Shown here one piece after another: positions 661 through 43,433 of a DNA stretch of 64,000 nt. The notes beneath the pieces were generated by a model that worked only from the letters and a program-made list of their open reading frames with translations, was not told where the DNA came from and ran no database searches. This stretch comes from Companilactobacillus heilongjiangensis. Lineage in GTDB: Bacteria; Bacillota; Bacilli; Lactobacillales; Lactobacillaceae. Where the stretch lies: assembly GCF_000831645.3 (NCBI RefSeq), contig NZ_CP012559.1, forward strand, positions 1,302,001 through 1,366,000. Reading direction: 5' to 3'. A program made the translations under genes and the position numbers. Every line of letters starts with the position of its first letter. Within the stretch, counting starts at the first letter, position 1.

Positions 661-872
661 ATTTAAATTTGCTGTTTTAGATTGCGAAGGAATGAAGTCT
701 GCTACGAGACCTGTTCGAGCTTAGAAAGTGGATTCGACCCTCACTTTTGAACTTCGCAAAGTACACCGATTTCAAAAAATGTCCTGTAATGTAAGAAGAG
801 AGGATTACCGTTCTTACACCACTTCCACTGTCGACTAACTTCCATCACAACTTCCGACTAATGTACTCTTTG
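661..872 (-). repeat. Structured repeat copy 1 (degenerate)
   Basis: This is a decayed member of the repeat family described under copy 9. Read on the plus strand, the order is a P3-like hairpin, a P2-like hairpin, then P1 (GTAATGTAAGAA pairing with TTCTTACACCAC). It ends with CTTCCGACTAAT as other copies do. The outer stem is largely lost. With copy 2 it makes a head-to-head pair in the 825 bp gap between rpoD and cfa. The rest of that gap (533-660 and 873-1126) is AT-rich and shows nothing I can name. Confidence 0.6.
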
Positions 873-1126
873 ATTCTAATTTCGAGAATTTTACATCCAT
901 ATTCATAAATAAGCAATACAAATATCTTAATCATCAAGTATCAGTTATCAACACAAATAAGTTGATATTTGTAATATCACATTTAATTTATTAGCCACAT
1001 AATTAATTGTAGTAATTTCAATTTTCAATAATAAATGTTGAAAATAATAGTAACTATAAATCAAATATTTTGTATTTTCCAACTAACAAAGATGAGTCAA
1101 ATCCAACATCCCAGCCAACAGATAAA

Positions 1127-1311
1127 CTAGCCTCCGGGTGCCAGAGATTTCACCAGCTATGGAGGTGGCGTTATTGCTTTAGCAATTACACCACAGGGCG
1201 ACTTTGGAGACTCGCGGGTTATGGCGAGGCTTCAAAGTGAGACTTGAGACCTTGGCTCAAGTCGGTCCTCATAGCAGGCGAAAATCTCTGGCACCCGGAG
1301 GCGGCATATTT
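1127..1311 (+). repeat. Structured repeat copy 2 (type B outer stem)
   Basis: The outer arms GCCTCCGGGTGCCAGAGATT and AATCTCTGGCACCCGGAGGC are almost perfectly complementary. Between them lie P1 (GTTATTGCTTTAGCAATTAC core), P2 (CTTTGGAGACT...GGCTTCAAAG) and P3 (GACTTGAGACC...GGCTCAAGTC). The inner modules match the type A copies, but the outer arm sequence is different. The copy lies directly downstream of the rpoD terminator. Confidence 0.85.
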
Positions 1312-1317
1312 AAAAAA

Positions 1318-1349
1318 ACAAAAAAAAGACCACCAATTGGCAGTCTTTA
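1318..1349 (-). terminator. Rho-independent terminator after rpoD
   Basis: On the minus strand the stem AAGACTGCC...GGTGGTCTT is followed by a run of T. It begins 9 bp beyond the rpoD stop codon. Confidence 0.8.
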
Positions 1350-1357
1350 AATTTTAA

Positions 1358-2473
1358 TTATTCAAGGAAATCCTTAAGTTGTTTTGATCTTGAAGGATGA
1401 CGCAATTTTCTCAATGCCTTAGCTTCAATTTGACGGATTCTTTCACGAGTAACACCGAAGACTTTACCAACTTCTTCAAGTGTTCTTGTACGACCATCGT
1501 CCAAACCGAAACGAAGACGTAGCACGTTTTCTTCACGGTCTGTCAAAGTATCAAGTACATTTTCCAATTGTTCCTTCAATAGTTCATAAGATGCGTGGTC
1601 TTCAGGACTGGTTGCATCAGAATCTTCAATGAAGTCACCCAAGTGAGAGTCATCCTCTTCACCAATAGGTGTTTCCAATGAAACTGGTTCTTGAGCAATC
1701 TTCAAGATATCACGTACTTTACCAGTAGGCATATCCATTTCAGCACCGATTTCTTCAGGAAGTGGTTCACGACCTAAATCTTGAAGTAATTGACGTTGGA
1801 TTCTGATCAATTTGTTGATAGTTTCAACCATGTGAACAGGAATACGGATTGTTCTAGCTTGGTCAGCAATGGCACGAGTAATAGCCTGTCTAATCCACCA
1901 GGTTGCATAAGTTGAGAACTTGAAACCTAGACGGTAATCAAACTTTTCAACGGCCTTCATTAGACCCATGTTACCTTCTTGAATTAGATCCAAGAATTGC
2001 ATACCACGACCAACATATCTCTTAGCAATTGAAACAACCAAACGCAAGTTAGCTTCAGCTAGTTTTTGCTTAGCTTCTTCATCACCTTGTTCAATCTTCA
2101 AAGCCAAGTCAACTTCTTGTTGAGCATTAAGCAAAGGAACACGACCAATTTCCTTTAGATACATACGAACAGGATCGTTAACTTTAATATCTGTAGCAGC
2201 GGCTGTAGCTTCCTTTTTACTCTTGCTAGCTTCCTTCTTTTCCTTTAGAAGAGCAAGTTTACTAGGATTACCTTTATCATCAACAACACCGATACCGACA
2301 TCTTCAAGTTCACTAACAAAGTTAGTTAAAGCATCACCCTTAAGTTTGTAAGGTTTGATGATTTTTTCTTGAAGGTCATCTTCTGTAATCTTACCGGTCT
2401 TTTTAAGATCTTTGATGAGTTTCTTTGTTGCAGCTTTTAATTCTTTTGATACTGCTGGTTTTTTAGTTGCCAT
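1358..2473 (-). CDS. rpoD: Primary sigma factor RpoD (SigA)
   Basis: This is the housekeeping sigma subunit, which directs RNA polymerase to -10/-35 promoters. The 371-residue protein has a lysine-rich region 1.1 (about 1-95), region 1.2 starting at [11 protein letters not shown] (about 100), region 2 with [21 protein letters not shown] and [12 protein letters not shown] (about 143-200), region 3, and region 4.2 with [15 protein letters not shown] near the C-terminus. The size fits Firmicute SigA. The ATG at 2473 has GGAGG 10 bases upstream. It follows dnaG with a 23 bp gap, the usual dnaG-rpoD operon of Gram-positive bacteria. Confidence 0.98.
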
Positions 2474-2496
2474 ATATATTTATTCCTCCAGTATGC

Positions 2497-4323: not shown

Positions 4324-4424
4324 GGCCGTCACCTCCTCATATGTTTATAAAAACCGAGAAACATAATCTAACACATTCATTTTTGGAAAACAAACATGTT
4401 GAATCGTACACAAGCGACTAAAAA

Positions 4425-4463
4425 TAAAAAAGTGCTCCCATAAAAAGTGCAAACTGGGACCAC
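4425..4463 (-). terminator. Terminator hairpin in the dnaG-rpoD leader
   Basis: On the minus strand GTGGTCCCA pairs with TGGGAGCAC (4432-4440 with 4455-4463) and six T follow. It lies about 100 bp before dnaG and downstream of a candidate promoter at 4484-4511. The glyS operon already has its own terminator at 4689-4731. This hairpin therefore seems to act on a short leader transcript. The stretch 4324-4776 shows nothing else I can name. Confidence 0.6.
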
Positions 4464-4483
4464 TGTTTGCTTGTCAATTTCTT

Positions 4484-7945: not shown

Positions 7946-7982
7946 TTTTTTGATGATTGTCAATTGGTTTACTGAAGGTCCT

Positions 7983-8191
7983 AATTAAGTATCCCGTCTC
8001 CAGAGCTGGAAAATATTCTCAAGCTGTGCGGAACGGCTCGAGCCAAAGAGCGGTCTCGGGCCTCGGTTTGAAGCCTTGACACAGTTCGTCAAGTCTCCAA
8101 ACACGTCCGGTGGTATAAAGACGGGAGTTTCTCCCGTCCTTATACCACTACCACGGCACACAAATATTTCCCAGCTCTTCCGACTAATTTA
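7983..8191 (-). repeat. Structured repeat copy 3 (type A)
   Basis: A full type A copy with an outer stem (CCAGAGCTGGAAAATATTCT at one end, AAATATTTCCCAGCTCTTCC at the other), then P3, P2 and P1 in plus-strand order. The P1 stem is GTGGTATAAAGACGGGAG with its complement. It fills the gap between recO and the glyQS T-box. Confidence 0.85.
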
Positions 8192-8269: not shown

Positions 8270-9028
8270 TTACATATGCCATCTTTTCATTCTATCAATA
8301 AACGTTTTGCTCTTAGGATAATATCCCACTGTACCAAGGTAAATTGAATCTATTGCATGTTGAATTAAGTCTTTATTATTTTCTTTGATTTCAATCTTTC
8401 CAACTTGATCTAAGCTGATTTTACTGAATAATCTTAGAAAATATACGATTCGCTTGGGAATATGCAATCGATGAATATCGCTGTCAAAATGTTTTGAGCA
8501 TAATAATCCACCCAATAGGACTGAAAAATCGAAATTCCCTTCTGTTTCTCCGCCTACTACACATGAATCCATATTTGGCGATACTCCAAATGCATCTAAC
8601 AACTTCATCTGCATAATATTGACGATAATTTGAGCATCATAGCCATTCTCGATATACAACAATGACTTAAACAACAGTCTGTACCAGCTATCTGGTATTG
8701 GATCATCCACAAATGCTTCATGATACAAATCGAATAAGAATGTTGCATACGCATTTAACTCAATGTCTTGCATGATTTCATCAAACTGCTTGATATTACT
8801 AGCTGAATTTAGAAATGACAAGCCATTATCTTTAATAACTCCTGTGTACTCGCCATATGAAAAGGTAATCACTGAGCCTGATATTTTCGACTTTGCATTT
8901 TGTGTTCCTCGGACGAAAAAGGTTCTAAATCCATATTCTCTGGTCAAAATGGTGACTAATGCATCCCGTTCTTTGTAGCGTTGGCGCCGAACTACGATAC
9001 CAAAAAAATTAGTAGGCGTGTTAGCCAT
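8270..9028 (-). CDS. recO: DNA repair protein RecO
   Basis: RecO acts with RecF and RecR to load RecA on gapped DNA. The 252-residue protein has the N-terminal OB-fold signature (GIVVRRQRYKERDALVTILT, then GFRTFFVRGTQNAKSK). Its helical C-terminal domain normally carries a four-cysteine zinc site. Here only SCVVGG and GLLCSKH remain, so the zinc site looks half lost. The ATG at 9028 overlaps the era stop by one base (TAATG), so the two are coupled. Confidence 0.93.
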   Translation of the reverse strand: MANTPTNFFGIVVRRQRYKERDALVTILTREYGFRTFFVRGTQNAKSKISGSVITFSYGEYTGVIKDNGLSFLNSASNIKQFDEIMQDIELNAYATFLFDLYHEAFVDDPIPDSWYRLLFKSLLYIENGYDAQIIVNIMQMKLLDAFGVSPNMDSCVVGGETEGNFDFSVLLGGLLCSKHFDSDIHRLHIPKRIVYFLRLFSKISLDQVGKIEIKENNKDLIQHAIDSIYLGTVGYYPKSKTFIDRMKRWHM

Positions 9029-11956: not shown

Positions 11957-12170
11957 ACGTGTAGTGCTGATTAAATATGCCGTCTCCAGAGCTGGGAAAT
12001 ATTCTCTAGCTGTGCGGAACGGTCCGAGCCAAAGTACGGTCTCGAACCTCGGCACACAAATATTTCCCAGCTCTTGCGACTAATTAACCGTTATTAGTTG
12101 AATGTAAAAGTATTTAAGTACTTTTAAACTATGAAATATTTGTAGTAGGTAATCAACTAGCACCATGCGT
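11957..12170 (-). repeat. Structured repeat copy 4 (P1 and P2 deleted) with inverted ends and target duplication
   Basis: The outer stem and P3 are intact but P1 and P2 are missing. The ends are inverted repeats: ACGTGTAGTGCT at the left, AACTAGCACCATGCGT at the right. The AT-rich tail before the right end is shared with copies 5, 8, 9, 10 and 13. Directly outside, AATACTAT occurs at both 11949-11956 and 12171-12178, a clean target duplication (TAATACTAT if read as 9 bp). Confidence 0.88.
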
Positions 12171-13604: not shown

Positions 13605-14504
13605 CTATTCTCCAGCAATCAATTTATTCTTCATTTCTGGATCAAACACATTATTACGTAACATTTCAATTTCCGCTTTATAAGGAGCGACACCCTTTTT
13701 GTCATTTTCATCTTTTTTAACATAAGGGGTTTCCATAATCTTAGGCACATTTTCCAACTGTGGATGATGTGCAACATAGCTCAAAGCGTCAAAGCCAATC
13801 TTACCAAAGCCAATATCATCATGACGGTCCTTGTGTGAACCCATATCGTTCTTTGAATCATTCAAATGAATAACTGATAATTTGTCCAAACCGATGATAT
13901 GGTCAAATTCATTCAACACACCATCAAAATCATTTTTAACATCGTAACCAGCATCACTCATGTGACAAGTATCCATTGTGACGGATAGCTTATCATTTTG
14001 CTGGCAATTATCGAAAATTTCAGCAATTTGTTCGAAAGTAATTCCGACTTCAGTTCCCTTACCTGCCATAGTTTCAATCGCTACACTAACTTTTTGATTG
14101 GGCATGATAGCTTCATTTAGGGCTTGACCAATTTGTTTCAAAGCAACATCTGGTTCGGCAGTCAAATGTGCTCCGGGGTGAAAACTGATAGCCTCAATTC
14201 CCAATGCATCGGCACGTAAAAACTCATCGTGCATAAACGAAATTCCAAACGGTAGTTTATCCGGCTTAACGGTGTTACCAAGATTAACAATATATGGAGC
14301 GTGACCGATAATATGGTCAATTCCGTATTCTTTCAAAAGTGCCTGTCCTTCAGGAATCCTCATTTCTGAAACGTCCTTACGACGTGTATTTTGTGGGGCA
14401 CCAGTAAAAATCATCATCGCGTTGGCGCCATAACTGTGTGCTTCTTCGGCTGAACCGACAAGCATCTTGGGTGCTTTCATTGCAACATGTGAACCAATTA
14501 TCAT
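13605..14504 (-). CDS. nfo: Endonuclease IV
   Basis: This is an AP endonuclease of base excision repair that cuts 5' to abasic sites. The 299-residue TIM-barrel protein has the AP endonuclease 2 family motifs: FHPGAH, AIETMAGKGTEVG, DTCHMSDAGYD, and IHLNDSKNDMGSHKDRHDDIG with its zinc ligands. ATG 14504 is chosen over the TTG one codon upstream because it is better spaced from AGGGAGG. Confidence 0.96.
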   Translation of the reverse strand: MIIGSHVAMKAPKMLVGSAEEAHSYGANAMMIFTGAPQNTRRKDVSEMRIPEGQALLKEYGIDHIIGHAPYIVNLGNTVKPDKLPFGISFMHDEFLRADALGIEAISFHPGAHLTAEPDVALKQIGQALNEAIMPNQKVSVAIETMAGKGTEVGITFEQIAEIFDNCQQNDKLSVTMDTCHMSDAGYDVKNDFDGVLNEFDHIIGLDKLSVIHLNDSKNDMGSHKDRHDDIGFGKIGFDALSYVAHHPQLENVPKIMETPYVKKDENDKKGVAPYKAEIEMLRNNVFDPEMKNKLIAGE

Positions 14505-14594: not shown

Positions 14595-15473
14595 TTAATA
14601 TATATGAGCCTGATAGAACCGTCCCATGATCGTGATCGTATCAGTAACACTCACGAACGCATGTTGATCGGATAGAGCCATCGCATTTTCCAAATCGTGT
14701 AATTCAGAACGTGAGATAACTGTGAAAAGAATAGTCTTTTCTTCGTGCTTATAAGCACCTTCCGCATCATGGACAATTGTAATACCACGGCGCATTTCAT
14801 TTTGAATTTGTGTAATAACGTTTTTAGGTTTAGAAGTAACTATCATAACTTGAAGTTTTTGATCCTTGTTGTAGATCATATCGATAACTTGACCATTGAT
14901 GAAAATACTGACCGCACTGTAAAGCGCATGCACCCAACCGAATAAAAATCCGGCACACGCAACGATGAAAATGTTGAACATAATATTAATTGTTCCCACA
15001 CTTTTACCGGTTTTCTTACGCAAAATAATTCCTAAAATATCAATCCCACCGGTAGAAATACCATTTCTCAACGCCATACCAGTACCAAAACCATTAGCAA
15101 CCGCACCGAAAATGGCACAAACTAACGGATCTGCTGTAATTTTAACTGGTGGCAATAAATGCATCATTGTACTGGCCAAAGCAACCGCAATTATAGTGAA
15201 AAAGGTAAACTTGTGGTCGATTTTACGCCAAGAAAGTACAAATAATGGTGCATTCAATGCGAAATACATTATTGAGGTTGACAAATTAAATGGCAACCAT
15301 CGATGTGAAATTGTCGAAATCAACTGAGCAGCACCGGTAACACCAGAACCGTAAATCCCACCTGGTGTCCAGAACATGTTAACCGCAATTGAAACAGCAA
15401 TTGAATATAAAAATGCTATTGAAATTTTGGATAAGTTCTGATGTCTTTCAATCAGCTTATCTAATTCACCCAT
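14595..15473 (-). CDS. YitT family membrane protein
   Basis: A 292-residue integral membrane protein of the YitT/DUF161 family with a C-terminal DUF2179 domain. It has about five hydrophobic segments in residues 15-190, including the glycine-rich FWTPGGIYGSGVTGAAQL and GTGMALRNGISTGGIDILG that define the family. The soluble tail from about 200 contains TVISRSELHDLENAM. The biochemical function of the family is unknown. GGAG lies just upstream of the ATG. It is transcribed alone. Confidence 0.88.
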   Translation of the reverse strand: MGELDKLIERHQNLSKISIAFLYSIAVSIAVNMFWTPGGIYGSGVTGAAQLISTISHRWLPFNLSTSIMYFALNAPLFVLSWRKIDHKFTFFTIIAVALASTMMHLLPPVKITADPLVCAIFGAVANGFGTGMALRNGISTGGIDILGIILRKKTGKSVGTINIMFNIFIVACAGFLFGWVHALYSAVSIFINGQVIDMIYNKDQKLQVMIVTSKPKNVITQIQNEMRRGITIVHDAEGAYKHEEKTILFTVISRSELHDLENAMALSDQHAFVSVTDTITIMGRFYQAHIY

Positions 15474-16562: not shown

Positions 16563-16864
16563 TTTTTGCTTATTCAAGTATGCCGTCTCCAGAGCTGGGA
16601 AATATTCTCAAGCTGTGCGGAACGGCCCGAGCCAAAGTACGGTCTCGGCCCTCGGTTTGAAGCCTTGACCCAGTTCGTCAAGTCTCCAAACACGTCCGGT
16701 GGTATAAGTACGGAAGATTTCTTCCGTACTTATACCACTACCACGGCACACAAATATTTCCCAGCTCTTCCGACTAATTAACCGTTATTAGTTGAATGTG
16801 AAAGTATTTAACAAATTTAAACTATGAAATATTTGCAGTAGGTTATCAACCAGCACTATGCATA
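16563..16864 (-). repeat. Structured repeat copy 5 (type A, full, with tail)
   Basis: A complete copy with outer stem, P3, P2 and P1 in plus-strand order. P1 is GTGGTATAAGTACGGAAG with its perfect complement, several bases different from copies 3 and 9 yet still paired. The AT-rich tail runs to the degraded right end AACCAGCACTATGCAT. A short open frame across it is considered spurious. Copies 5 and 6 fill the 668 bp gap between msrB and aspS. Confidence 0.88.
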
Positions 16865-16927
16865 TACTGTATAAATAATTTCTTCAATTTTTAATTAATC
16901 ATTAGTAAACCTGATTTTCAATAATAC

Positions 16928-17120
16928 ACTAGCCTTCGGGTATCAGTAATTGTAGTCCACAATGGAGGTGTCGTTATTGCTTTAGCAATTACACCACGGG
17001 ACGAGTTTGGATACTTGCCGTACTTTGGCAAGGATTCAAATCGAGGTTCGAGACCGCATTTTGGCTCGGACCGGTCCCCATAGCAGAACTACAATTACTG
17101 ACACCCGAAGGTGGCATTTT
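16928..17120 (+). repeat. Structured repeat copy 6 (type B)
   Basis: The outer arms GGGTATCAGTAATTGTAGT and ACTACAATTACTGACACCC differ completely from type A yet pair with each other. Inside are P1 (TTATTGCTTTAGCAATTA), P2 and P3 (GGTTCGAGACC...GGCTCGGACC). It lies head-to-head with copy 5. Confidence 0.88.
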
Positions 17121-17129
17121 TCAAAACAT

Positions 17130-17171: not shown

Positions 17172-18941
17172 CTAGTCTTTTTTGCTAACTTCAATTCCAA
17201 GATCGTCCAATTGTAGTTTTGCAACTTCAAGTGGAGCGTGTGTCATTGGTTCGGTAGCATTTGAGTTCTTAGGGAAAGCAATGACGTCACGAATGTTGTC
17301 TTTGCCTGAAAGAAGCATTGCAAATCTATCCAAACCGATAGCCAAACCACCATGTGGAGGACAACCGTATTGTAAGGCATCCAATAGGAAGCCGAATTGT
17401 TCGTAAGCTTTTTCTTTAGTAAAGTCCAAAGCCTTCAACATCTTTTCTTGAATCTTGTAATCGTGGATACGAATTGATCCACCACCAAGTTCGTAACCGT
17501 TCAAGACGATATCATAACTTTGTGCATATGCCTTATGAGGATCTTCGCCGTCGTTTAGATAGTGAACATCTTCTTCATTTGGCATTGTGAATGGATGGTG
17601 AGCGGCAGTCCAACGTTGGATTCCTTCATCGTATTCGAACAATGGCCAGTTAACAACCCAGATGAATGCAAATTCATTAGGATCATACAAATGTTGTTCC
17701 TTAGCAATAGCTTTTCTCAAGTAACCTAAAGCGTCAGCAACGACTTTCTTCTTGTCAGCGACGAATAGTAACAAATCATCGTTTTCAAGGCCAAGACGTT
17801 CAACTAAAGCAGCTTCTTGAGGTTTGATAAATTTAGCAACACCACCAGCTAATTCGTTGTCATTGTATTTAGTCCATGCTAAACCTTTAGCACCGAATCG
17901 TTTGATGTATTCTTGGTAAGCTTCAATATTCTTTCTTGAATACTTGTCAGCTCCACCCTTAACAACGATTGCCTTAACTTGGCCGCCGTTATCAATAGTA
18001 CCCTTGAAGACTTTGAATTCTGTGTCTTGGAAGACATCGTTCAAGTTTTGTAATTCCATACCAAAACGAACATCGGGCTTATCTGAACCATAACGATCCA
18101 TGGCGTCATCCCAGTCGATTCTTGGGAATGGAGTTTTAACTTCGATACCCTTTTCGTCTTTCATAACACGAGCAATAAGTCCTTCAGTAACAGTTTGAAT
18201 TTCTTTCTTGTTCATGAAACTTGTTTCAATATCAATTTGTGTAAATTCAGGTTGACGGTCACCACGAAGGTCTTCATCACGGAAACAGTGTGCTAGTTGG
18301 AAGTAACGGTCAAATCCACCAACCATCAATAATTGCTTGAACAATTGTGGTGATTGTGGAAGTGCGAAGAAACGTCCAGGGTAAACACGTGAAGGAACTA
18401 AGTAATCACGGGCACCTTCTGGTGTTGATGGTGTCAAATTAGGTGTTTCGATATCAATAAAACCATTGTCATAAAGATATTCGTTAACAGAATGCTTGAT
18501 TTGGGCACGTGTTCTGATAGCTTTTTGCATTTCAGGTCTACGTAAATCAAGGTAACGATACTTTAATTTAGTTTCTTCTAATGAGTCGATACCATCTTTA
18601 ATTTCGAATGGTGGTGTCAAAGATTTGTTAAGGATTTCAACCTTTTCAACAACAACTTCAACTTTACCAGTCTTCATATCTTCGTTAGTAGCACCTTCAC
18701 CACGAAGTCTAACAGTACCTATAACATTGACAACATATTCTGATCTAAGATTTTCAGCAGCATCAAGTGCTTCTTGATTATCAGTATTGAAAACCAATTG
18801 AACGATGCCCTTATAATCTCTAAGGTCAACGAAAATCAATCCACCTAAATCACGGCGTCGTTGAACCCAGCCATCTAAAGAAACTTTTTTACCAACATAC
18901 TCTTCAGTAATGTTGCCACAATATTCTGTTCTTTCTTCCAT
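17172..18941 (-). CDS. aspS: Aspartate-tRNA ligase
   Basis: A class II synthetase that charges tRNA-Asp. The 589-residue bacterial-type protein has an N-terminal OB anticodon-binding domain ([18 protein letters not shown]), motif 2 with [16 protein letters not shown], the bacteria-specific GAD insertion in the middle, and motif 3 with [13 protein letters not shown]. It follows hisS by 2 bp and shares the T-box at 20225-20385, the common hisS-aspS arrangement of Firmicutes. Confidence 0.98.
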
Positions 18942-20385: not shown

Positions 20386-20483
20386 ATTACGAATATACTT
20401 ATAAATTATCCAAAATGACCCAAATTGTCAAGTTAGTTTGGCTATGTTTACGTTTTCAAAAATATTAAAAGTTGGAAGTTTAT

Positions 20484-20678
20484 TGAAGTTTGCCGTTTAC
20501 AGAGCTGAGAGTATTCATCTGCTGCGCGGTACGGTCCGAGCCACAGTACGGTCTCGAACCTCGGTTGAAGCCTTACCACAAACCGGTAAGTCTCCAACAC
20601 GCCCGGTGGTGTAAGAGCTGAAGCTCTAACGCCACTCTCGCGGCATATGAATACTCTCAGCTCTTCCAACTAATTTAT
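20484..20678 (-). repeat. Structured repeat copy 7 (type A variant)
   Basis: The outer arms (AGAGCTGAGAGTATTCAT and ATGAATACTCTCAGCTCT) are perfectly complementary but differ from copies 3 and 5. P1 has shrunk to GTGGTGTAAGAGCTGAAGC with its partner. It gives the uninterrupted form of the site where the group II intron sits in copy 11. Copies 7 and 8 occupy most of the 925 bp between the hisS T-box and the amidase; 20679-20851 is featureless AT-rich DNA. Confidence 0.88.
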
Positions 20679-20851
20679 TTTAAAATACAAACCATAAATA
20701 AAAGCTTCATAACATATAAATAATGGCTAGAACTGCTAACTCTCTTGTTGAATCATGTTTTCATATTTAAGAATCAAATTATTTACTCACGTCTCAAATA
20801 CTTATACAACAGTATCAAATTATCCTAATCAACTATATTTATTCAATCTAA

Positions 20852-21134
20852 ACGCCTGGCGCTAGATTGATAATCCATTAAAAATACTTCATGGTCTAAA
20901 ATCACTTAAATACTTTGACACTCAATTATTACCGATCAATTAGTCGGAAGAGCTGGGAAATATTTGTGTGCCGTGGAAGTGGTATGAGTACGGGAACTTC
21001 TTCCTGTACTTATACCACCGGACGTGTTTGGAGACTTGACGAACTATGTCAAGGCTTCAAACCGAGGTTCGAGACCGCCCTCTGGCTCGGACCGTTCCGC
21101 ACAGCTCGAGAATATTTCCCAGCTCTTCCGACGG
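20852..21134 (+). repeat. Structured repeat copy 8 (type A, with left tail)
   Basis: The left end is ACGCCTGGCGCTAGATTG, a variant of the terminal inverted repeat. The AT-rich tail follows, then the outer stem, P1, P2 and P3. P1 pairs GTGGTATGAGTACGGGAA with TTCCTGTACTTATACCAC. The right terminal repeat is missing. It lies head-to-head with copy 7 and about 170 bp upstream of the amidase gene. Confidence 0.87.
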
Positions 21135-21309
21135 CATATTTAAAGCCCAAAAATCAAATTTACGACAAATTCACAAAAATATACGAACAATAGTTCTAAA
21201 AAGGTAAAATTTATTACAAATTTACAAACATTTCTTTCAACTTACCGCTATATTAAGTAATATATAAGGTGTAGAAATGTCAGTAATTGACAACGAAGGA
21301 ATCAGTTAA

Positions 21310-22611
21310 ATGAAAAAGACTATTAAATTTTTTATTAAAAACCGGATTCTTGTTGCTATTTTGTTATTACTCGCCCTTTCGAGTTGGTCAACAGTGGCTT
21401 TAGCAAGTGCCAATGCCGTTGTTGTACAGTCTGACTCCGTAAATGTTCGTGTCGGCCCAGGACTATCCTATGCTAATATGGGTCAAGTTAAAAAAGGTGA
21501 CAAATTGGCCATCTTGGACGAAAAAAACAAATGGTATCAAGTCAGATTATCCGGAGACAAAATTGGCTGGGTCGCCAGCTGGTTGATCGACAACACTGAA
21601 GTTAGTTCGGCAACCAATAAAGTTGGAATCGTCAAAGTACCTAATACAACAGTTTTCAAGAGTGCTGATGCTGGTAGTAACGTTTTGGGAACAATTGAAC
21701 AATCTCAAAAAGTTACTATTATGTATCAGGAACAAGATTGGACACAGATTTTATACGGTGGAACTGCTGGTTGGGTCAAATCAAGTTTCATTCAAGGTAC
21801 CCAAGAAACTTCTGGCTCAACAAATTCTTCCAATACATCTGATAATGACATTAAGAAAGTTACAGTCACTCAACCTAACACGAAATTGCGTATCGATCCG
21901 GATCAAAACGGTCGTGTTGTTAAAACAGCTAAAGTTGGTAAACAATTTGACTTCTTGAGTAAAGATGGTAAATGGTACAAAGTTCGTGACGCTGACGGTT
22001 CAGTTGGCTACGTTGCTAGCTGGGTCGTAACAATCTCTGGTACTAAGAGTGCTGTAAAGTCCGCCGCAACTAATATTTCAGAAGCTACAATCGTGATTGA
22101 TCCTGGTCACGGTGGTGATGACTCTGGTGCGGAATCAAAGAAGAGCACCTATGAAAAGAACTTTACCCTCGCCTATGCCAAAGCCATTAAGAGTGACCTA
22201 GAAAAGACTGGTGCTCGTGTAGTCTTAACTCGCTCTGGTGATGATAGTAAATCTCTTGGTGAACGAGCTCGTCTATCAAGTAAAATTCAAGCCGATGCAT
22301 TTATCAGTTTACACTTTGACTCTAGTGCTCAAGCTAACGCTGGTTCCGGTGTAACAACTTACTATTACAACAAAGGTAAAGATGGCACCCTAGCTAACGA
22401 TTTGAACAGTCAGCTTAAAGGCTTACCTATTGGCAACCGTGGGACCGCTCAAAAGGACCTTTACGTCTTGCACTATAACAGTCAACCATCTGTCTTAATT
22501 GAATTAGGCTATATCAACTCAATGACCGATTATAAGCATATTAATTCCTCTACTTATAAAGAGGCAGTCGCAAAAGATGTAACTAACGGTTTAAAAGAAT
22601 ATTTTAAATAA
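21310..22611 (+). CDS. Secreted N-acetylmuramoyl-L-alanine amidase with SH3 repeats
   Basis: A peptidoglycan hydrolase that cleaves the bond between MurNAc and the stem peptide. The 433-residue protein has an N-terminal signal or anchor (MKKTIKFFIKNRILVAILLL... to about residue 33) and three bacterial SH3 domains (about 37-95, 105-160 and 178-245; each has a V(N/K)VR-like start and a GW(V)xSW-like end). An Amidase_3 domain runs from about 258 to the end. The zinc ligands are visible: IDPGHGGDDSGA, YEKNF, FISLHFDSS and SVLIELGYINS. It acts outside the cell in wall turnover. It has its own terminator. Confidence 0.95.
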   Translation: MKKTIKFFIKNRILVAILLLLALSSWSTVALASANAVVVQSDSVNVRVGPGLSYANMGQVKKGDKLAILDEKNKWYQVRLSGDKIGWVASWLIDNTEVSSATNKVGIVKVPNTTVFKSADAGSNVLGTIEQSQKVTIMYQEQDWTQILYGGTAGWVKSSFIQGTQETSGSTNSSNTSDNDIKKVTVTQPNTKLRIDPDQNGRVVKTAKVGKQFDFLSKDGKWYKVRDADGSVGYVASWVVTISGTKSAVKSAATNISEATIVIDPGHGGDDSGAESKKSTYEKNFTLAYAKAIKSDLEKTGARVVLTRSGDDSKSLGERARLSSKIQADAFISLHFDSSAQANAGSGVTTYYYNKGKDGTLANDLNSQLKGLPIGNRGTAQKDLYVLHYNSQPSVLIELGYINSMTDYKHINSSTYKEAVAKDVTNGLKEYFK

Positions 22612-22612
22612 A

Positions 22613-22656
22613 TTGAAAAGAACTGTCATTTATTAGTTAAATGACGGTTCTTTTTG
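22613..22656 (+). terminator. Terminator after the amidase
   Basis: The hairpin AAGAACTGTCATTTA / TAAATGACGGTTCTT followed by a T run begins a few bases after the stop. Confidence 0.85.
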
Positions 22657-22712
22657 TTATAGTTGAAACAAATTATTAAATATCGTGTCTACAAAAAACG
22701 GAGGTCATGCCA

Positions 22713-23240
22713 ATGAAAGTTTACTTAATACGCCACTCTCAACCAGATTTTAAGCAAGTTGATCAAGCTGGTTACGTTGGATACGGACGTGACTTAACCC
22801 GTTTGACTCCTTATGGTATTAAAGTTGCTCAAAAAGCCGCGCTGGACCCAATTTTTGACCAAATGCAGCTGCTATTGGTCTCGCCTTACACTAGAACCAT
22901 GCAAACCGCTATGGAAATTGTCAAAATTCATCCTAACTTACCGACCCAAGTTGAATTGATGTTGCACGAATGGCGCCCTGATTTGACCGGTCGTAAATTG
23001 ACTGGCTATCCGCAAGTTAAAGCAGCGTATAATGATTACTTAAATAATACTCATAATTCAGGTATGGACTACGAAACTGCTGATCAAATTATCAATCGTG
23101 TTAGCTCAGTCTTGGATAAATATAAAAAAGATTATGACTGTATCGGCTGTGTAACCCATGGCCAAGTTATCCGTCGCATGAAGGGGTTGGATATGCGGAC
23201 ACAAATTCCATACTGCGGTATTTATCGACTTGATTATTAA
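22713..23240 (+). CDS. Histidine phosphatase family protein
   Basis: A 175-residue member of the phosphoglycerate mutase-like histidine phosphatase superfamily. The phospho-acceptor motif is RHSQP at residues 6-10 (most members have RHG or RHA). The second catalytic histidine is in CVTHGQVIRR. A YTRTMQTA segment (LLVSPYTRTMQTAM) completes the site. ATG 22713 is chosen because GGAGG is 8 bases upstream, while ATG 22707 is only 2 bases from it. The substrate cannot be told from sequence. Confidence 0.88.
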   Translation: MKVYLIRHSQPDFKQVDQAGYVGYGRDLTRLTPYGIKVAQKAALDPIFDQMQLLLVSPYTRTMQTAMEIVKIHPNLPTQVELMLHEWRPDLTGRKLTGYPQVKAAYNDYLNNTHNSGMDYETADQIINRVSSVLDKYKKDYDCIGCVTHGQVIRRMKGLDMRTQIPYCGIYRLDY

Positions 23241-23243
23241 TCA

Positions 23244-23555
23244 ACGCATACTGCTAATTGATAATTTATTTCAGTATATAAAGTAAGTTGAATATAAAAG
23301 CAACTGAATACTTTTACATTCAATTAATATAGATTAACTAGTCGGAAGAGCTGGGAAATATTTGTGTGCCGTGGTAGTGGTATAAGGACGGGAGGAATCT
23401 CCCGTCCTTATACCACCGGGCGCGTTTGGAGACTTGACGAACTGTGTCAAGGCTTCAAACCGAGGTTCGAGACCGCACTCTGGCTCGGACCGTCCCGCAC
23501 AGCTTGAGAATATTTCCAAGCTCTGGAGACGGAATACTTAACTAGCACTACACGT
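23244..23555 (+). repeat. Structured repeat copy 9 (type A, complete reference copy)
   Basis: This is the most complete copy. The left end is ACGCATACTGCTAATTG and an AT-rich tail of about 95 bp follows. The outer 5' arm is GTCGGAAGAGCTGGGAAATA. P1 has an 18 bp perfect stem (GTGGTATAAGGACGGGAG). P2 is TTTGGAGACTTGAC...GTCAAGGCTTCAAA and P3 is GGTTCGAGACC...GGCTCGGACC. The outer 3' arm and a right end AACTAGCACTACACGT complete it. TAATCA (23238-23243) and TAACCA (23556-23561) flank it, a slightly decayed target duplication. It begins 4 bp after the phosphatase stop codon. Confidence 0.9.
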
Positions 23556-23719
23556 TAACCAACAATAAGAAAGTCAAACTTATCATACTCACTGGGGAAT
23601 CAATTATCAAAAACTTTGAAAAATCACTACCTACCAAAAATAGTCGCGAACTTTATGACGAAAATCAAAAATTACCAAAATTATTTAGAACATACAATCG
23701 ACGCCAATTCTTCGAATTA

Positions 23720-24421: not shown

Positions 24422-24423
24422 TA

Positions 24424-24636
24424 CGCATGGTGCTAGTTAAAATCCTACTACAAATATTTCATAGTTTAAAAATATTTAAATACTCTTATATTCAACTAAT
24501 AATGATTAATTAGTCGGAAGAGCTGGGAAATATTTGTGTGCCGTGGTTCGAGACCGCCCTTTGGCTCGGGCCGTTCCGCACAGCTTGAAAATATTTTCCA
24601 GCTCTTCCGACGGCATATTTAACTAGCACCACACGT
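24424..24636 (+). repeat. Structured repeat copy 10 (P1 and P2 deleted) with 8 bp target duplication
   Basis: The left end CGCATGGTGCTAGTT and the right end AACTAGCACCACACGT are inverted. The AT-rich tail, outer stem and P3 remain; P1 and P2 are absent. ATCCATTA flanks it on both sides (24416-24423 and 24637-24644), a perfect 8 bp target duplication. The duplicated bases contain the stop codon of the HAD gene on one side and the start codon of the Fic-like gene on the other. Confidence 0.92.
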
Positions 24637-30024: not shown

Positions 30025-30082
30025 AAAAGTTCCTCCATTATTAACTGTGGCCGTTTCCAGAGCTGAGAGTATTCATCTGCTG

Positions 30083-31968
30083 ATCGAGTAGGAGGTATCT
30101 CACGATACCGACCTCTCACACCACCGTACGTACGGTTCCGTATACGGCGGTTCATTAATTTAAGCATTTTGCAAAGACTGGAGTCTTTTGGTCATGTCTA
30201 TTAGGCCAAAAGATTCTAGCTTTTTCTTGCTTAGGGCGTGTTGCACCACACTGCTGTGCGCTGTTCGCCAGTATCCTTTACTGGAGTTTGCACAGATAAA
30301 CGCTTGACGCCGTGTCACGCCTAATTTAACCAACTTCCTATACTTTGCTTTGGGTCTTTTCCATGACTTCCAAATATATTGTCTAATACGTGCTCGCAAC
30401 CAAGAATCAAGTTTTCTGATAAAATCCTTCATCGCACCAATTCCATAGTAATTGAGCCATCCAACCATCTTTTGTCTTATTTCTTTCAGGATAACTTCAA
30501 GCTTTCGACCTCGATTCCTCTTTGTGAGTTTTCTTAGCGATTGCTTGACCCTCTTTTCGGCTTGATAGCTCGGGCGTAAACATACGCCCTTGTTGGTAAA
30601 GCCTAAAGAGAATCCTAAAAACTTTGACTTTGTTGGCACTGTAATTTTGGTCTTTTCTTGGTTTAAAGTTAGCTTTAAACCACTTTCTAGGAACCTTGAA
30701 ATACTATTCAGGACTCTTCTTCCTGCTCGTTTACTTTTGACATAAATATTACAGTCATCAGCGTAGCGGACGAATTTATGACCACGGGTGGTCAATAACT
30801 TGTCCAGCTCATTTAAATATATGTTGGCCAAGAGTGGAGAAAGGTTACCGCCTTGAGGCGTACCTTTTTCCATTTCTTGAAATAGTTTTCCATCCATTAC
30901 GCCACTGGTTAGGAACTTACGAATTAGATTTAACAACCATTCATCATCAGTATATTGCTTGATGAACTTGATAAGTAAATCATGGTTCACCGTGTCGAAG
31001 TAAGACTTTAGGTCAAGGTCTATCACAACGTGATAGCCTTGCTTGTAAAAACTCACAACCTGTTTTACTGCGTCATGGGCACTTCGATTTGGTCTAAATC
31101 CAAAGCTGTTGTTAGAGAAGATTTTCTCAAAGATAGGGCTCATAACCTGCGCCACTGCTTGTTGTACCACACGGTCGAAGACTGTTGGTATACCAAGCTT
31201 ACGCATAGTCCCATTTGGCTTAGGTATTTCTACCCTTTTGACGGGGCTAGGTTTATAAGTTGAATCACTTAAGGACTTAAGTAGTGCTTCCTTGTTCTTA
31301 CGAATATAGTCGAACAAGTCATAGACAGTCATTCCATCTATGCCAGCTCCACCCTTGTTTTCCTTGACTCGCTTATAGGCTCTATTGAGATTATTTTCAT
31401 CTAAAACTAGTTGCTTAAATGAAATGCCATTCTTATTCGTATTTTCGCCAGAAGCGGCGCTACGTACCATCATTTGTTCACATATGTGAGCATTAAAATG
31501 GTCGAATTTACATTCTATTTTCTGCGATTGTCGCATCGCTTCCACCTCCAATATCGAAAAGAATTATTAATGTTCAGTCCTTCGTCGCAAAGCGACTACT
31601 ATGACCTCTGCTGACTTCTGCATCGTTCAGTTAGACATCACGGCCTAATTTGTCTGTAGGACTCATTTCGAGTCCTTGCCAGACATTCGATACAGACCTC
31701 CCTGGGTAAGAACGTTAACTTTCGTACCATGTAGCTGTTGGCTCTACTTGATTTGCCCTTGCAGTAGTGATCGGATTTGAATTCCGCGGCACCCTTATCC
31801 TGCAAATCCAGCCTTATAGCCACTTCTTGTACATCAGCTCGGTACTTTGCCTTGGACTTCCTTCAGATTCCACCTCACGATGGACACCCTTGTCCTAAGC
31901 TAGTGATTCCGACTACTACGGTTCACAGAGGACTTTCACCTCTAAGTTAACGCCCATGCCAGGCGCAC
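30083..31968 (-). mobile_element. Group II intron, complete (1886 bp)
   Basis: On the minus strand the intron begins GTGCGCCTGGCATGGG, matching the group II 5' consensus GUGYG, and ends CTCGAT. Near the 3' end, domain V is visible as a hairpin with arms ACCGCCGTATACGGAACCG and CGGTGGT-type sequence, followed by a domain VI hairpin (GGTATCGTGAGATACC). Residual domain I-IV structure fills 31537-31968. The insertion point lies 8 bases downstream of a perfect palindromic hairpin of the host repeat. That fits the hairpin-directed targeting known for class C introns, but I infer the class rather than prove it. Confidence 0.92.
30160..31536 (-). CDS. ltrA: Group II intron reverse transcriptase/maturase
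   Basis: This protein splices its own intron RNA and copies it into DNA during retrohoming. From ATG 31536 (GGAGG 7 bases upstream) it is 458 residues. The RT domain spans about 50-330 with GGAGIDGMTV, PKPNGTMRKLGIPTVFDR, TPQGGNLSPLLANIY and the catalytic RYADDCNIYV. A maturase domain follows, and the C-terminal end has ANSSKGYWRTAHS. No HNH endonuclease domain is present. The frame is intact, so the element may be active. Confidence 0.95.
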   Translation of the reverse strand: MRQSQKIECKFDHFNAHICEQMMVRSAASGENTNKNGISFKQLVLDENNLNRAYKRVKENKGGAGIDGMTVYDLFDYIRKNKEALLKSLSDSTYKPSPVKRVEIPKPNGTMRKLGIPTVFDRVVQQAVAQVMSPIFEKIFSNNSFGFRPNRSAHDAVKQVVSFYKQGYHVVIDLDLKSYFDTVNHDLLIKFIKQYTDDEWLLNLIRKFLTSGVMDGKLFQEMEKGTPQGGNLSPLLANIYLNELDKLLTTRGHKFVRYADDCNIYVKSKRAGRRVLNSISRFLESGLKLTLNQEKTKITVPTKSKFLGFSLGFTNKGVCLRPSYQAEKRVKQSLRKLTKRNRGRKLEVILKEIRQKMVGWLNYYGIGAMKDFIRKLDSWLRARIRQYIWKSWKRPKAKYRKLVKLGVTRRQAFICANSSKGYWRTAHSSVVQHALSKKKLESFGLIDMTKRLQSLQNA

Positions 31969-32228
31969 CGCGGAACGGCTCGAGCCAAAGAGCGGTCTCG
32001 AGCCTCGGTTGAAGCCTTACCACAGACTGGTAAGTCTCCAACACGCCCGGTGGTGTAATGGCTAAAGCCATAACGCCACACCCACAGCGGGTAAATGTCC
32101 TCATCTCTTCCGACTAATTTAAATATTCCATATATTTTAAATAGTTCATATATTATAGAATTTGTATTTTAAGTCATCCGTATACAAATTGTGTCAGTAA
32201 AAAAAATAAAACATAACACAATCCATTA

Positions 32229-32410
32229 GCCGGAGGTTGTCAGTAATATAGTCGGCAGTGAAGGTGGAGTTGGGACGAGTGTTTTTCTCGTTCTTACTCC
32301 ACGGACGACTTTTGAGACGCGATTTTCGGCTCAAAAGCGAGGTTCGAGACCGTACTTTGGCTCGAACCGGTCCTCACAGCCGACTGTATTACTGGCAACC
32401 GGAGGCGGCT
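32229..32410 (+). repeat. Structured repeat copy 12 (type B)
   Basis: The outer arms GGTTGTCAGTAATATAGTCGG and CCGACTGTATTACTGGCAACC pair, with a sequence unlike the type A arms. P1 is GTGGAGTAAGAACGAG-type (read on the minus strand); P2 and P3 (GGTTCGAGACC...GGCTCGAACC) are conserved. It is head-to-head with copy 11. Between them, 32124-32228 is AT-rich without visible features. Confidence 0.85.
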
Positions 32411-32468
32411 CACCCACTTAATAATAAGATTACTAGAAAAAGCCCACAAAAAAAAGACGTTACCGCCT

Positions 32469-35691: not shown

Positions 35692-35843
35692 ACGCATGGT
35701 GCTAGTTGATAACCTTTTAAAAATATTCCACAGTTTAAAATTGCTTAAATGCTTATATATTCAACTAATACCGATCAATTAGTCGGAAGAGCTGGGAAAT
35801 ATTTTCCAACTCTGGAGACGGCATATTTAACTAGAACCACATA
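35692..35843 (+). repeat. Structured repeat copy 13 (all inner hairpins deleted)
   Basis: The left terminal repeat ACGCATGGTGCTAGTTG, the AT-rich tail and the outer stem (GTCGGAAGAGCTGGGAAATA with TTTTCCAACTCTGGAGAC) remain. P1, P2 and P3 are all gone, leaving a 152 bp MITE-like remnant. It lies between the 60-residue gene and ybaK; the rest of the 35642-35965 gap is AT-rich. Confidence 0.85.
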
Positions 35844-35965
35844 TAACAATAACTTGAAAATTAAAATTAATTTTCTAACCACTAAAGCCACTTCACTTTT
35901 AAAAATTATTAGCTTTGTTATTATATACTAAGTAAGCATTAAGTTTTAGGGGTTGAAAAGAAAAA

Positions 35966-38846: not shown

Positions 38847-39029
38847 ACGTGTGGTGCTAGTTGACTTTTAACTATATCTAAAATTAATTTTAAAATCCAA
38901 ATATCCCCCTTATCCTATGGCTGTAATTATCAGTGACATTATAATATTGAAAGTTATTCACTATTGATTTAGAAACAAAGAATAAACCAGCCGGAAAGAG
39001 CAAGAGATTTTGGAGGCGGCCACCACGCA
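38847..39029 (+). repeat. Structured repeat copy 14 (deleted remnant with flanking direct repeat)
   Basis: The left end ACGTGTGGTGCTAGTTG is a perfect terminal repeat. The right part retains only AGCCGGAAAGAGCAAGAGAT and TGGAGGCGGC, like the ends of copy 15. All inner hairpins are gone. TATCCTTACAT flanks it at 38836-38846 and 39030-39040. It accounts for most of the 38644-39121 gap. Confidence 0.72.
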
Positions 39030-39121
39030 TATCCTTACATATTTGTAAGCAACCCGTAAGTAAATCAAATGTAAAAAAATGGTCAACTTTAATAATCTAG
39101 TCATAGGAGGAAAATTCACTT

Positions 39122-39563: not shown

Positions 39564-39599
39564 GCATCATCAAATTACTTTACTCTATCGAATATTACT

Positions 39600-40073: not shown

Positions 40074-40074
40074 T

Positions 40075-41289: not shown

Positions 41290-41887
41290 AGTCAACTACC
41301 TCATTATTCATTTTCACGACATATTTACCTAAGATATCAGTCTCAATATTTACTTTTTCTCCGGATTTCAATTGTCCTAAGATTGTTTCCTTTAATGTGT
41401 AAGGAATCAAGGCTACTTGAAACCAGTCTGATCCAACAGAAACAACCGTTAAGCTGACACCGTCTATTCCAATGGAACCTTTTTCGACAATAAATGGCAT
41501 TTGGCTAGAATCTATTTTAAAAGTAAATACCTTGGAACTCGACTGTTCTTCAATTTTAGTTACTACAGCTGTCGTATCCACGTGTCCTAAGAGAAAATGG
41601 CCATTCAAGCGTTCCGTCACTTGTAAAGTCGGTTCTAAGTTAACTAAACTGTTCAATTGCAGCTCATCGAAAGTAGTTCTCTTTAAAGTTTCTGGCATGG
41701 CATCAACCCAGAAGTCGTTATTTTGAAATTTAGTAATCGTTAAACATACTCCGTTGATCGAAATACTTTCACCAATTGCAAAATTCTCAGGGTCAATCAA
41801 TGATGATGCAATTCTAATTTGTTCAGTTCCATGATTATCTTGCAGTTGCACGATTTTTCCTTGTCCTTTGACGATCCCTGTAAACAT
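41282..41887 (-). CDS. ribE: Riboflavin synthase alpha chain
   Basis: This enzyme dismutates two ribityllumazines into riboflavin and a pyrimidine. From ATG 41887 it is 201 residues with the classic start MFTGIVKGQGKIV and two lumazine-binding repeats (SINGVCLTI in the first, GIDGVSLTV in the second; GHFLLGHVDTTA between). The frame upstream to 41983 lies inside ribD and is rejected. The ATG overlaps the ribD stop (TGATG). Confidence 0.97.
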   Translation of the reverse strand: MFTGIVKGQGKIVQLQDNHGTEQIRIASSLIDPENFAIGESISINGVCLTITKFQNNDFWVDAMPETLKRTTFDELQLNSLVNLEPTLQVTERLNGHFLLGHVDTTAVVTKIEEQSSSKVFTFKIDSSQMPFIVEKGSIGIDGVSLTVVSVGSDWFQVALIPYTLKETILGQLKSGEKVNIETDILGKYVVKMNNEVVDYE

Positions 41888-42933
41888 CAATACACCCTCT
41901 TTGCGGAAATTTTTATATCTGATCCTAATGGAGTAATTTGTTTGAGCTCGAAATTCATCATCTCGGAAATTCCTGGTCCCCAAATACTTGGTAACCCAGT
42001 TCCCCCAATCAACTTCGGTGCAATATAGACAATTAAATTATCGACTAAATTACTTTTAACAAAGTTGGCATGAATATGACTGCCGCCTTCAATCAACAAA
42101 GATTGAATTCCTTGTTGGGTCAAAAAATCAATAATTTTTCGTGGCGTCCAAACTTCATCAACTAAAACGTGAATGTTTTCTGGTAAAACTTGTTCATTTT
42201 TGTGATTAGTCAAAATATAGATGGGACCCTTTGACTGAAAAATGGCTTGTTGTAAATCTAATTTTTGAGCATTATGAATCAATACAATCCTAAAAGGTGG
42301 AAATGCTGGATTCGACCGTATTGTTAATTTAGGATCATCAACTTTCAAAGTGTTTTCGCCAATCAAGATGGCTTGGTTCATCTGTCGTAATTTTTGAGTA
42401 TCTTGAAAAGTATCCTTGCCAGTTAACATAGTACGATAGCCATCTTTTTGATTGATTTTTCCATCCAATGACATGGCATACTTCAAAGTAATGAGTGGCC
42501 GCTGATTTTGAAAATAAAAATTATAAGCTAGATTCAGTGACTCACTATTATCCAAATTAGTTACTTGAATATTATGCTGTTTCAGACGTTCAACACTTTT
42601 TCCCGCAACCAGTGGATTAGGATCAATTTGGCCAATAACTACGCGCTTAAATCCCAGTTCAATTATTTTATTGACGCATGGTGGTGTCTTTCCTTGATGG
42701 CTACAAGGTTCTAAGGTCACATAAATCGTCGCTCCAGTGCCCTCTTTCTCATTTTTTAAATGACTAATGGCATCAATTTCAGCATGATTCTCACCAAAAC
42801 GATGGTGATAACCTTTCGCTAAAATCTGACCATTTTTAACAATAACCGCACCAACTAAAGGATTTTGCCAAGTCTGGCCCAATCCTTTTTTTGCTTGGTT
42901 TATTGCTATTTCTAAATACTGCTGATCTGTCAA
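41887..42933 (-). CDS. ribD: Bifunctional riboflavin deaminase/reductase RibD
   Basis: RibD deaminates and then reduces the early pyrimidine intermediate. The 348-residue protein has the zinc deaminase domain (NHAEIDAI, EPCSHQGKTPPC) and a C-terminal NADPH reductase domain (LKYAMSLDGKI, LLIEGGSHIHANF). It is the first gene of the operon and follows the FMN riboswitch and its terminator. Confidence 0.97.
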   Translation of the reverse strand: MTDQQYLEIAINQAKKGLGQTWQNPLVGAVIVKNGQILAKGYHHRFGENHAEIDAISHLKNEKEGTGATIYVTLEPCSHQGKTPPCVNKIIELGFKRVVIGQIDPNPLVAGKSVERLKQHNIQVTNLDNSESLNLAYNFYFQNQRPLITLKYAMSLDGKINQKDGYRTMLTGKDTFQDTQKLRQMNQAILIGENTLKVDDPKLTIRSNPAFPPFRIVLIHNAQKLDLQQAIFQSKGPIYILTNHKNEQVLPENIHVLVDEVWTPRKIIDFLTQQGIQSLLIEGGSHIHANFVKSNLVDNLIVYIAPKLIGGTGLPSIWGPGISEMMNFELKQITPLGSDIKISAKRVY

Positions 42934-42944
42934 TCTTATTCACC

Positions 42945-42979
42945 CCAAAAAAAAGGTCCCGCAAAAATGCGGGGCCCCA
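42945..42979 (-). terminator. Riboswitch expression-platform terminator
   Basis: On the minus strand GGCCCCGCATT / TTTTGCGGGACC is followed by eight T, between the FMN aptamer and ribD. It is the likely FMN-controlled terminator. Confidence 0.88.
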
Positions 42980-43057
42980 TTATTTTTATTAAGCCAAATA
43001 AGACTTCTTTCGAAGACAATCTTAAATAAACGTACTGAGTACGAAAAAATCTTATTT

Positions 43058-43186
43058 TTCTTCTCCCATCCAGACTATACTGTCGGTTCCAGACTCACAC
43101 TGGATCCACCGCAAAACGCGGGTCACGGACTTCAACTTTTAGTTGTTACCGTCGGTCGGGAATTACACCCTGCCCCGAAGAAATCA
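43058..43186 (-). promoter_or_regulatory. FMN riboswitch (RFN element)
   Basis: On the minus strand the conserved RFN blocks appear in order: CTTCGGGGCAGGGTG, AATTCCCGACCGACGGT, AAGTCCGTGACCCG, GGTGGATCCAGTGTGA, CTGGAACCGACAGTA and AGTCTGGATGGGAGA. Binding of FMN favours the downstream terminator and lowers rib expression. Confidence 0.97.
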
Positions 43187-43206
43187 TTATTCAGTTTTCA
43201 AAAGCG

Positions 43207-43235
43207 ATATTATCATAGTAAAAATATAATTGCAA
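43207..43235 (-). promoter_or_regulatory. Candidate promoter of the rib operon
   Basis: The -35 TTGCAA (43230-43235) and -10 TAATAT (43207-43212) are 17 bp apart on the minus strand, placing the start about 15 bp before the FMN aptamer. Repeat copy 15 begins directly upstream of the -35. Confidence 0.5.
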
Positions 43236-43433
43236 TGCGAGTTATTTAAATATGCCACCTCCAAGAGCAAGAAATCAGGTCGCTATGGGAACCGACAAAA
43301 GCCGAGGTCTTTTGTCTCGATTTTGAACCTCGCACAAATCACGAGTTTCAAAAGTCGTTCCGTGGTGTAAGCACTAAAGTGCTAACGCCACCTGCACAGC
43401 GACCTGATTTCTTGCTCTTTCCGGCTAGTTCAT
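43236..43433 (-). repeat. Structured repeat copy 15 (third outer-stem type)
   Basis: The outer arms AAGAGCAAGAAATCAGGTCGC and GCGACCTGATTTCTTGCTCTT are perfectly complementary and unlike types A and B. Inside are P3-, P2- and P1-like hairpins; P1 is GTGGTGTAAGCACTAAAGTG with its partner. It is the last copy in the window. The 43434-43599 stretch after it has no supported feature. Confidence 0.85.

Follow-up and report, generated by a model that had tools for sequence, protein, structure and literature searches.

The 64,000-nt stretch of Companilactobacillus heilongjiangensis DNA analysed here (the window: contig NZ_CP012559.1, positions 1,302,001 to 1,366,000) is dotted with copies of a large, structured repeat. 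They belong to a family of non-coding repeats that lies between the genes of various Lactobacillaceae and that probably spreads as selfish, non-autonomous DNA, in the manner of the REPINs of other bacteria but with a much larger module. The basic module, which I call a half, is about 190 nt long and closes on itself through a conserved fold of several helices. The family supplies thousands of natural variants of one fold. Halves that share an intergenic region follow a strict head-to-head rule, which calls for a mechanism, and one subfamily bears a clear signature of transposition. Repeats of this sort may also break assemblies, drive rearrangement and confuse the annotation of non-coding RNA.

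One family of intergenic repeats

A reading of the window from sequence alone had listed 15 repeats with a common stem architecture, and all 15 are indeed members of one family. Ten are full (661, 1127, 7983, 16563, 16928, 20484, 20852, 23244, 32229 and 43236), one is full but split by an intron, and four are shortened: 11957 and 24424 retain the outer stem and one inner hairpin (P3) only, and 35692 and 38847 have no inner stem at all. A covariance model, R1, recovers 13 of the 15 with expectation values (E) from 3.7e-28 to 2.3e-4, ten of those 13 being part of its training set. A second model, R2, built from 122 copies of other genomes (themselves found with R1) and from no window copy, recovers the same 13 and no others (E up to 0.01). 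The two that both models miss, 35692 and 38847, are recognized by their terminal repeats and outer-stem sequence.

That all copies are intergenic is essentially right. Taking 90 copies from a genome sample and 12 from the window, 92 of the 102 are clear of open reading frames (ORFs) of at least 90 aa as called by a crude ORF caller, and the ten overlaps are, by my own reading, mostly start extensions or spurious frames. The sequence-only reading had the copies and the fold; it overlooked the head-to-head pairs, the arms typical of a miniature inverted-repeat transposable element (MITE), some target duplications, and the intron in one copy. Its remark that no named family has this layout stands as well: neither the window repeats nor 11 loci of relatives match Rfam above the gathering threshold, and a search of 20400-23600 of the window at relaxed E gave nothing relevant. 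Nor was a description of the family found in the CC-licensed part of PubMed Central, as judged by titles and the openings of abstracts.

The fold is real

A half, read in its own orientation, runs from roughly TAAAYTAGYCGGA to roughly GGAGRCGGC, after which ATATTTAA often comes. The stems described earlier are all there, together with one further helix, a short stem GGAC..GTCC. The helices come in the order: a variable outer stem (P0), the hairpin P1, the short stem, which encloses the remaining two, then P2 and P3.

In an alignment of ten window copies, 92.8% of cells pair, compared to 81.8% in shuffled alignments and only 36.5-46.3% when partners are slid by 1-3 columns; 25 of the 51 pairs show changes on both sides, against a shuffled mean of 11.8. 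With 122 copies (120 distinct) from several genera, both sides have changed in 49 of 51 pairs, the doubly changed cells number 1263 vs 327 in shuffles, and none of 500 shuffles is as high on any of five measures. Pairing in this alignment is 91.9% (33.5-46.4% with partners slid), a figure that leans towards the structure because the alignment was fitted to the model. The arms of the outer stem lie outside the model, and there Watson-Crick complementarity is 90.7% within a copy and 69.2% when arms of different copies are compared; the 5' arms of 72 copies include 59 distinct ones. The shared fold is real, well above chance.

Which strand folds? If only one does, that strand should tolerate G.T more than A.C. 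At inner pairs that are mostly Watson-Crick, the model-fitted alignment has 97 G.T and 25 A.C. An alignment made from sequence only, of 78 distinct copies from the C. heilongjiangensis genome itself, has 32 and 13 (p = 0.007 if cells were independent). Among the less conserved inner pairs of the latter alignment, five hold 23 to 55 G.U each and one holds 46 A.C. No excess of G.T is found in the outer stem. The inner part therefore looks as though it folds from one strand, and the outer stem does not discriminate. The sequence-only reading had offered a folded RNA as one option, and a folded single strand, RNA or DNA, is what the covariation and the inner stems favor, the outer stem withholding its support. 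The strand in question is likely the repeat's sense strand, either as single-stranded DNA during replication or as RNA.

Abundance and range

Twenty evenly spaced 20-kb stretches, 400 kb in all or 14% of the 2.79-Mb genome, contain 90 R1 matches (E up to 0.001) and 92 R2 matches (E up to 0.01). Extrapolation gives about 630-640 copies per genome. A search of the whole genome found at least 150, every one of the 150 candidates scored being a match.

The family had been expected to be restricted to one genus. It is not. R1 matches occur in 17 of 25 Companilactobacillus genomes (this one included). Among 301 genomes from 40 genera of Lactobacillaceae, R1 is matched in 63, which represent 9 genera; with R2 the tally rises to 121 of 388 genomes, from 12 of the 40 genera. 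Few candidates per genome were scored in these family-wide searches, so they show presence and not copy number. The genera include Companilactobacillus, Lactiplantibacillus, Lapidilactobacillus and, with weaker matches, Lacticaseibacillus. Stretches of other genomes gave (E up to 0.01) 12 matches per 100 kb in G002, 6 per 100 kb in G001, 9 per 60 kb in G275 and 8 per 60 kb in G337, and several matches of the family lie within 350 bases of a contig end. Outside the family, R1 found nothing in 16 genomes from other families of the order, and R2 gave one marginal match (E 1.7e-4) among 397 other genomes of the phylum.

Halves are paired head to head

Four pairs occur in the window (661/1127, 16563/16928, 20484/20852 and 30041/32229), and in the window and genome sample together every one of the 22 intergenic regions with two copies has them head to head, with both 3' ends outward. 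One further region has three copies, and halves also occur singly. Counted by distance, neighboring R1 matches in the sample less than 600 bp apart are minus-plus in 22 cases, plus-minus in two (both spanning a gene, by my reading) and never tandem. The rule holds in loci of other genera: of 35 close pairs there, only one, a minus-minus tandem, is not head to head. Were the 5' arm longer, this could explain where a second copy sits, though not which way it points.

Do doublets join two types of half? In C. heilongjiangensis no signal of two-type pairing was found among 19 pairs, and the idea was dropped for this genome. In two other genera, 11 doublets have a member in one particular clade, and in ten of these the partner falls outside it, a result read from the leaf order of a single tree without support values; in the exception, L200, both members are inside. 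Single copies were also searched for the remains of a decayed partner, and this too was rejected: 4 of 46 score at least 15, the same as a wrong-strand control. One of the four, at L142 15368, has a weak partner that R2 finds as well. A different arrangement is seen at L031 474-1632 (G010:C11), where three minus-strand halves spaced by about 345 bp are followed by one plus-strand half; it looks like local tandem amplification.

How the halves may move

The clearest signs of mobility come from the MITE subfamily. Its terminal repeats are ACGYRTGGTGCTAGTT, and paired ends stand 101-321 bp apart in the C. heilongjiangensis genome, seven pairs being spaced 303-305 bp; the 214-bp form is one that lacks P1 and P2. 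For the copy at 24423-24636, all four relatives inspected (C. huachuanensis, C. nantensis, C. nuruki and C. kimchiensis) show an exact empty site, and ATCCATT(A) is duplicated at the insertion. Further flanking duplications of 8-10 bp, ATAGTATT(A), ATGAAAAAT, ATTAATTA(A) and ATCCTTACAT, are found at other copies, in a survey that used only those with clear ends and in which the minus-strand loci L001-L030 were read unoriented. The same ends flank a 961-bp element in another genome (G006:C32, L184 ~897-1857) that carries a broken transposase gene, both ORF pieces of which have the IS982 transposase NF033520 as their best match, each scoring below the whole-protein cut-off.

The MITE subfamily would then be moved in trans by a transposase of the IS982 family. 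Its ends are found at all in only 8 of 36 genomes of the genus and are numerous in 4, compared to the 12 genera that have cores, so the core looks the older of the two and the MITE a vehicle that it acquired late. A selfish element, one of the possibilities raised from the sequence alone, is supported for the IS982-type subfamily by the exact empty site; for the other halves I infer it. They may spread through a mechanism that reads a folded single strand, as REPINs or attC sites might be read.

Then there is the turnover of halves at sites that are shared between species. Where relatives also carry a copy at the same place, such copies are 59-76% identical in five comparisons (61-76% in the four that set window copies against those of two relatives), while aligned flanking blocks of the two relatives are mostly 80-98% identical. 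At the site equivalent to 7981..8190, the copy in C. huachuanensis belongs to another subtype and shares 61% identity. Related species differ at the few sites that were compared. In two Lapidilactobacillus species, at two sites of one unit of about 0.8 kb, the left halves look swapped, both outer-stem arms together. These four sequences suggest recombination between copies, and halves at a site may be replaced in this way. In one of the two species a solo left half (L088 14405-14761, L089 14300-14343) is flanked by an imperfect direct repeat of about 40 bp, far longer than usual target duplications, which is single in the other species. The same loci (L088 ~14720-14820 and ~8300-8400; L089 ~14290-14400) contain a second structured-looking repeat, GAGTGTGA..CATTAGCCTAGC..GCTAAGCG, which has no Rfam match.

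Several findings weigh against the idea that the whole family is selfish and REPIN-like. Many copies of MITE type lack a clear duplication, and in halves of other types no terminal repeat or target duplication was recognized by eye, no systematic test having been made. No partner gene emerged when ORFs within about 1.5 kb of 53 loci were compared all against all. A Y1 transposase like that associated with REP sequences (RAYT; Y1_Tnp, PF01797) can be rejected, as its presence does not track the repeats: it is absent from the copy-rich genomes G002, G006, G009, G011, G016, G021 and G024 and present in G007, which has no R1 matches. The two members of a doublet resemble each other neither more nor less than copies taken at random do (similarity 0.69 in 19 pairs of the own genome; random 0.705, standard deviation 0.015), so the doublet was not evidently copied there as a unit. 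Single and paired copies outside the MITE subfamily are equally conserved (medians of 107.2 and 109.7 bits for 39 and 40 copies, p = 0.70). The outer stems of 63 such copies hold 23 G.T and 24 A.C, in effect equal. Searches with blastn found no match to one window core in phage records and no plasmid match to doublets from two other genera.

Two ways in which a gene might have traveled with the repeat were considered and set aside. The largest group of ORFs, at six loci, overlaps the repeat itself, and the next occurs at 5 of the 53; the sole candidate inspected for a long spacer with a transposase (L112, 1.1 kb) holds an ordinary gene, presumably msrA. One MITE-type copy, without P1 and P2, does reside on a plasmid of Limosilactobacillus reuteri (NZ_CP030091.1, L204 ~1420-1630); by my reading its ends are decayed. 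It is close to a gene for an IS30-family transposase.

Other views of the repeat

One may go further and suppose that the halves constitute a new kind of mobile module, known by its fold and not by its sequence: an unseen factor would capture the folded strand, insert or swap halves, and give a first half its partner in head-to-head orientation, and would do so across 12 genera. I put this forward tentatively, as a possibility that is at present rather speculative.

An alternative, somewhat doubtful, is that the repeat is a structured RNA domesticated by the host. Transcription would start in the middle of the doublet and run outward through each half, whose RNA might serve, for instance, in the processing of mRNA or in binding a protein, with transposition serving to multiply the copies. 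Covariation in nearly every pair across genera would be expected of such an RNA, as would the surplus of G.T over A.C in the inner stems (97 vs 25 and 32 vs 13), and single copies remain well conserved. It is harder to see why one inner pair should be A.C in 46 of 78 copies, why there should be hundreds of diverged copies, and why the few sites compared should differ between related species. A promoter belonging to the repeat was looked for and rejected: TATAAT-like hexamers are not enriched upstream of copies (176 vs 234 in shuffles, 74 of 85 copies being usable). Nor is there any tie to the arrangement of genes, the repeat occupying 28% of tandem, 35% of convergent and 29% of divergent intergenic regions.

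The covariation might instead have no bearing on selection at all. Template switching (quasi-palindrome correction) would keep the two arms complementary, and what looks like a conserved fold would be the mark of DNA repair. This is quite improbable. Outer stems do look the part, being almost purely Watson-Crick, with G.T no more common than A.C, while their sequence varies freely. But such correction should erase P2's A.G mismatch, the A that bulges from P3, the recurrent G.U pairs and the invariant unpaired bases, all of which persist, and the order of the helices is constant across genera.

That the repeats are bidirectional terminators or insulators between genes is very unlikely: copies are intergenic, many abut convergent terminators or promoters by eye, and of 48 single copies 35 have their 3' end, not their 5' end, on the side of the nearer gene (p = 0.002), but convergent genes are not preferred, several copies stand (again by eye) beside an ordinary terminator, and in the copies inspected no T-tract directly follows the stem, the 3' flank being GGCATATTTAA or variable, and the option, which the sequence-only reading had included, is disfavored on account of the lack of preference for any gene pair and of a T-tract.

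A group II intron finds P3

The intron at 30083-31968 encodes reverse transcriptase (RT) and maturase domains (RVT_1 and GIIM). Five more near-identical copies are found in the genome, and all six are inserted at the same point, just 3' of P3, in halves of one subtype. A seventh copy in this genome, 74% identical, follows a terminator-like hairpin, and a partial eighth exists. Across the genus, 21 intron copies or ends were inspected by eye; the 5' flank is readable in 16, and each of these was inserted behind a hairpin. By my own reading, six of the 16 are the copies at P3, one lies after P3 in another species, one is at a P1-like hairpin, six come after T-rich, terminator-like hairpins, and two after other hairpins.

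As far as sequence can tell, the intron at 30083-31968 has the features of group IIC, an RT/maturase ORF and insertion 3' of a hairpin. Group IIC introns use terminators and attC sites as targets, according to PMC4424553. To these two the repeat seems to add another kind of hairpin into which group II introns insert. This would point to P3 forming an exposed DNA hairpin in vivo.

Comparison with known elements

The REPINs and REP-BIME elements of Pseudomonas and Escherichia are, according to PMC3116915, extragenic palindromic modules that occur as inverted doublets and singlets and whose spread is likened to IS200/IS605 transposition. The present family shares with REPINs its many extragenic modules and the mixture of inverted doublets and singlets. 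It differs in size and build: a REPIN module has one short palindrome, a half some 190 nt and five helices. Two features of REPINs that were tested, association with a Y1 transposase and greater decay of singlets, were not found in the family. For these reasons, and given its far larger module, I do not class the family as a REPIN, though it may work like one.

MITEs of the IS982 family share with one subfamily of the repeat the IS982-type terminal repeats, an empty site that is exact, and target duplications, which several copies have. The subfamily differs in carrying the structured core as cargo, and most genomes of the genus with cores are without such ends; in the family as a whole, the terminal repeats do not accompany the repeat wherever it occurs. 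A word search of a MITE review (PMC10969869) finds neither "IS982" nor "Lactobacillus".

Bcr1 and other SLS families are likewise dispersed, mostly intergenic, and possessed of a common predicted fold, as described in PMC2267715; the likeness drawn here is one of description, and the only lactobacillus in that text is L. johnsonii, with one occurrence. The attC sites and terminators targeted by group IIC introns (PMC4424553) are likewise folded DNA motifs that receive group II introns. The repeat differs from attC in that no integron is seen, copies are dispersed over the chromosome, and insertion occurs 3' of P3.

Copies in the window and their neighbors

Table 1. Repeat copies and the inserted intron in the window, by position (R1 misses only the copies at 35692 and 38847; other copies with a blank last cell are matches too)
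Position	Strand	Feature	R1
658..863	-	Full half, divergent; left member of pair 1	E 7.7e-12
1121..1319	+	Full half; right member of pair 1; faces 3' end of ORF 1358-2473(-)	match
7981..8190	-	Full half; MITE-type core, arms decayed	match
11957..12170	-	214-bp MITE form that has lost P1 and P2; flanked by the duplication ATAGTATT(A)	
16568..16775	-	Full half; left member of pair 2	match
16924..17127	+	Full half; right member of pair 2	match
20478..20680	-	Full half of the subtype starting AGTTGGAAG; left member of pair 3	
20934..21148	+	Full half, MITE-type core and left arm; right member of pair 3	
23244..23555	+	312-bp MITE form: complete core, long arm on the left, terminal repeats at both ends with 3 and 2 mismatches	
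24423..24636	+	214-bp MITE form reduced to outer stem and P3; terminal repeats intact at both ends; ATCCATT(A) duplicated	
30041..30082	-	3' piece of the full half that the intron splits; left member of pair 4; outer boundary approximate	
30083..31968	-	Group II intron, RT ORF 30160-31551; inserted just 3' of the repeat's P3	
31969..32125	-	5' piece of split half: outer-stem 5' arm, P1, P2, P3	match
32220..32422	+	Full half; right member of pair 4	match
35692..35844	+	153-bp MITE form lacking the inner stems	
38847..39030	+	MITE form, inner stems absent; flanked by direct repeat ATCCTTACAT (identified by eye)	
43241..43434	-	Full half, single; 3' end faces flavin mononucleotide (FMN) riboswitch 43054-43186	match

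The ORF at 17172-18941, which I take to encode aspartyl-tRNA synthetase, places the window in Companilactobacillus, since the related ORFs of C. huachuanensis and C. nantensis match it at 98% identity. At the other end of the series, the FMN riboswitch directly adjoins the last copy.

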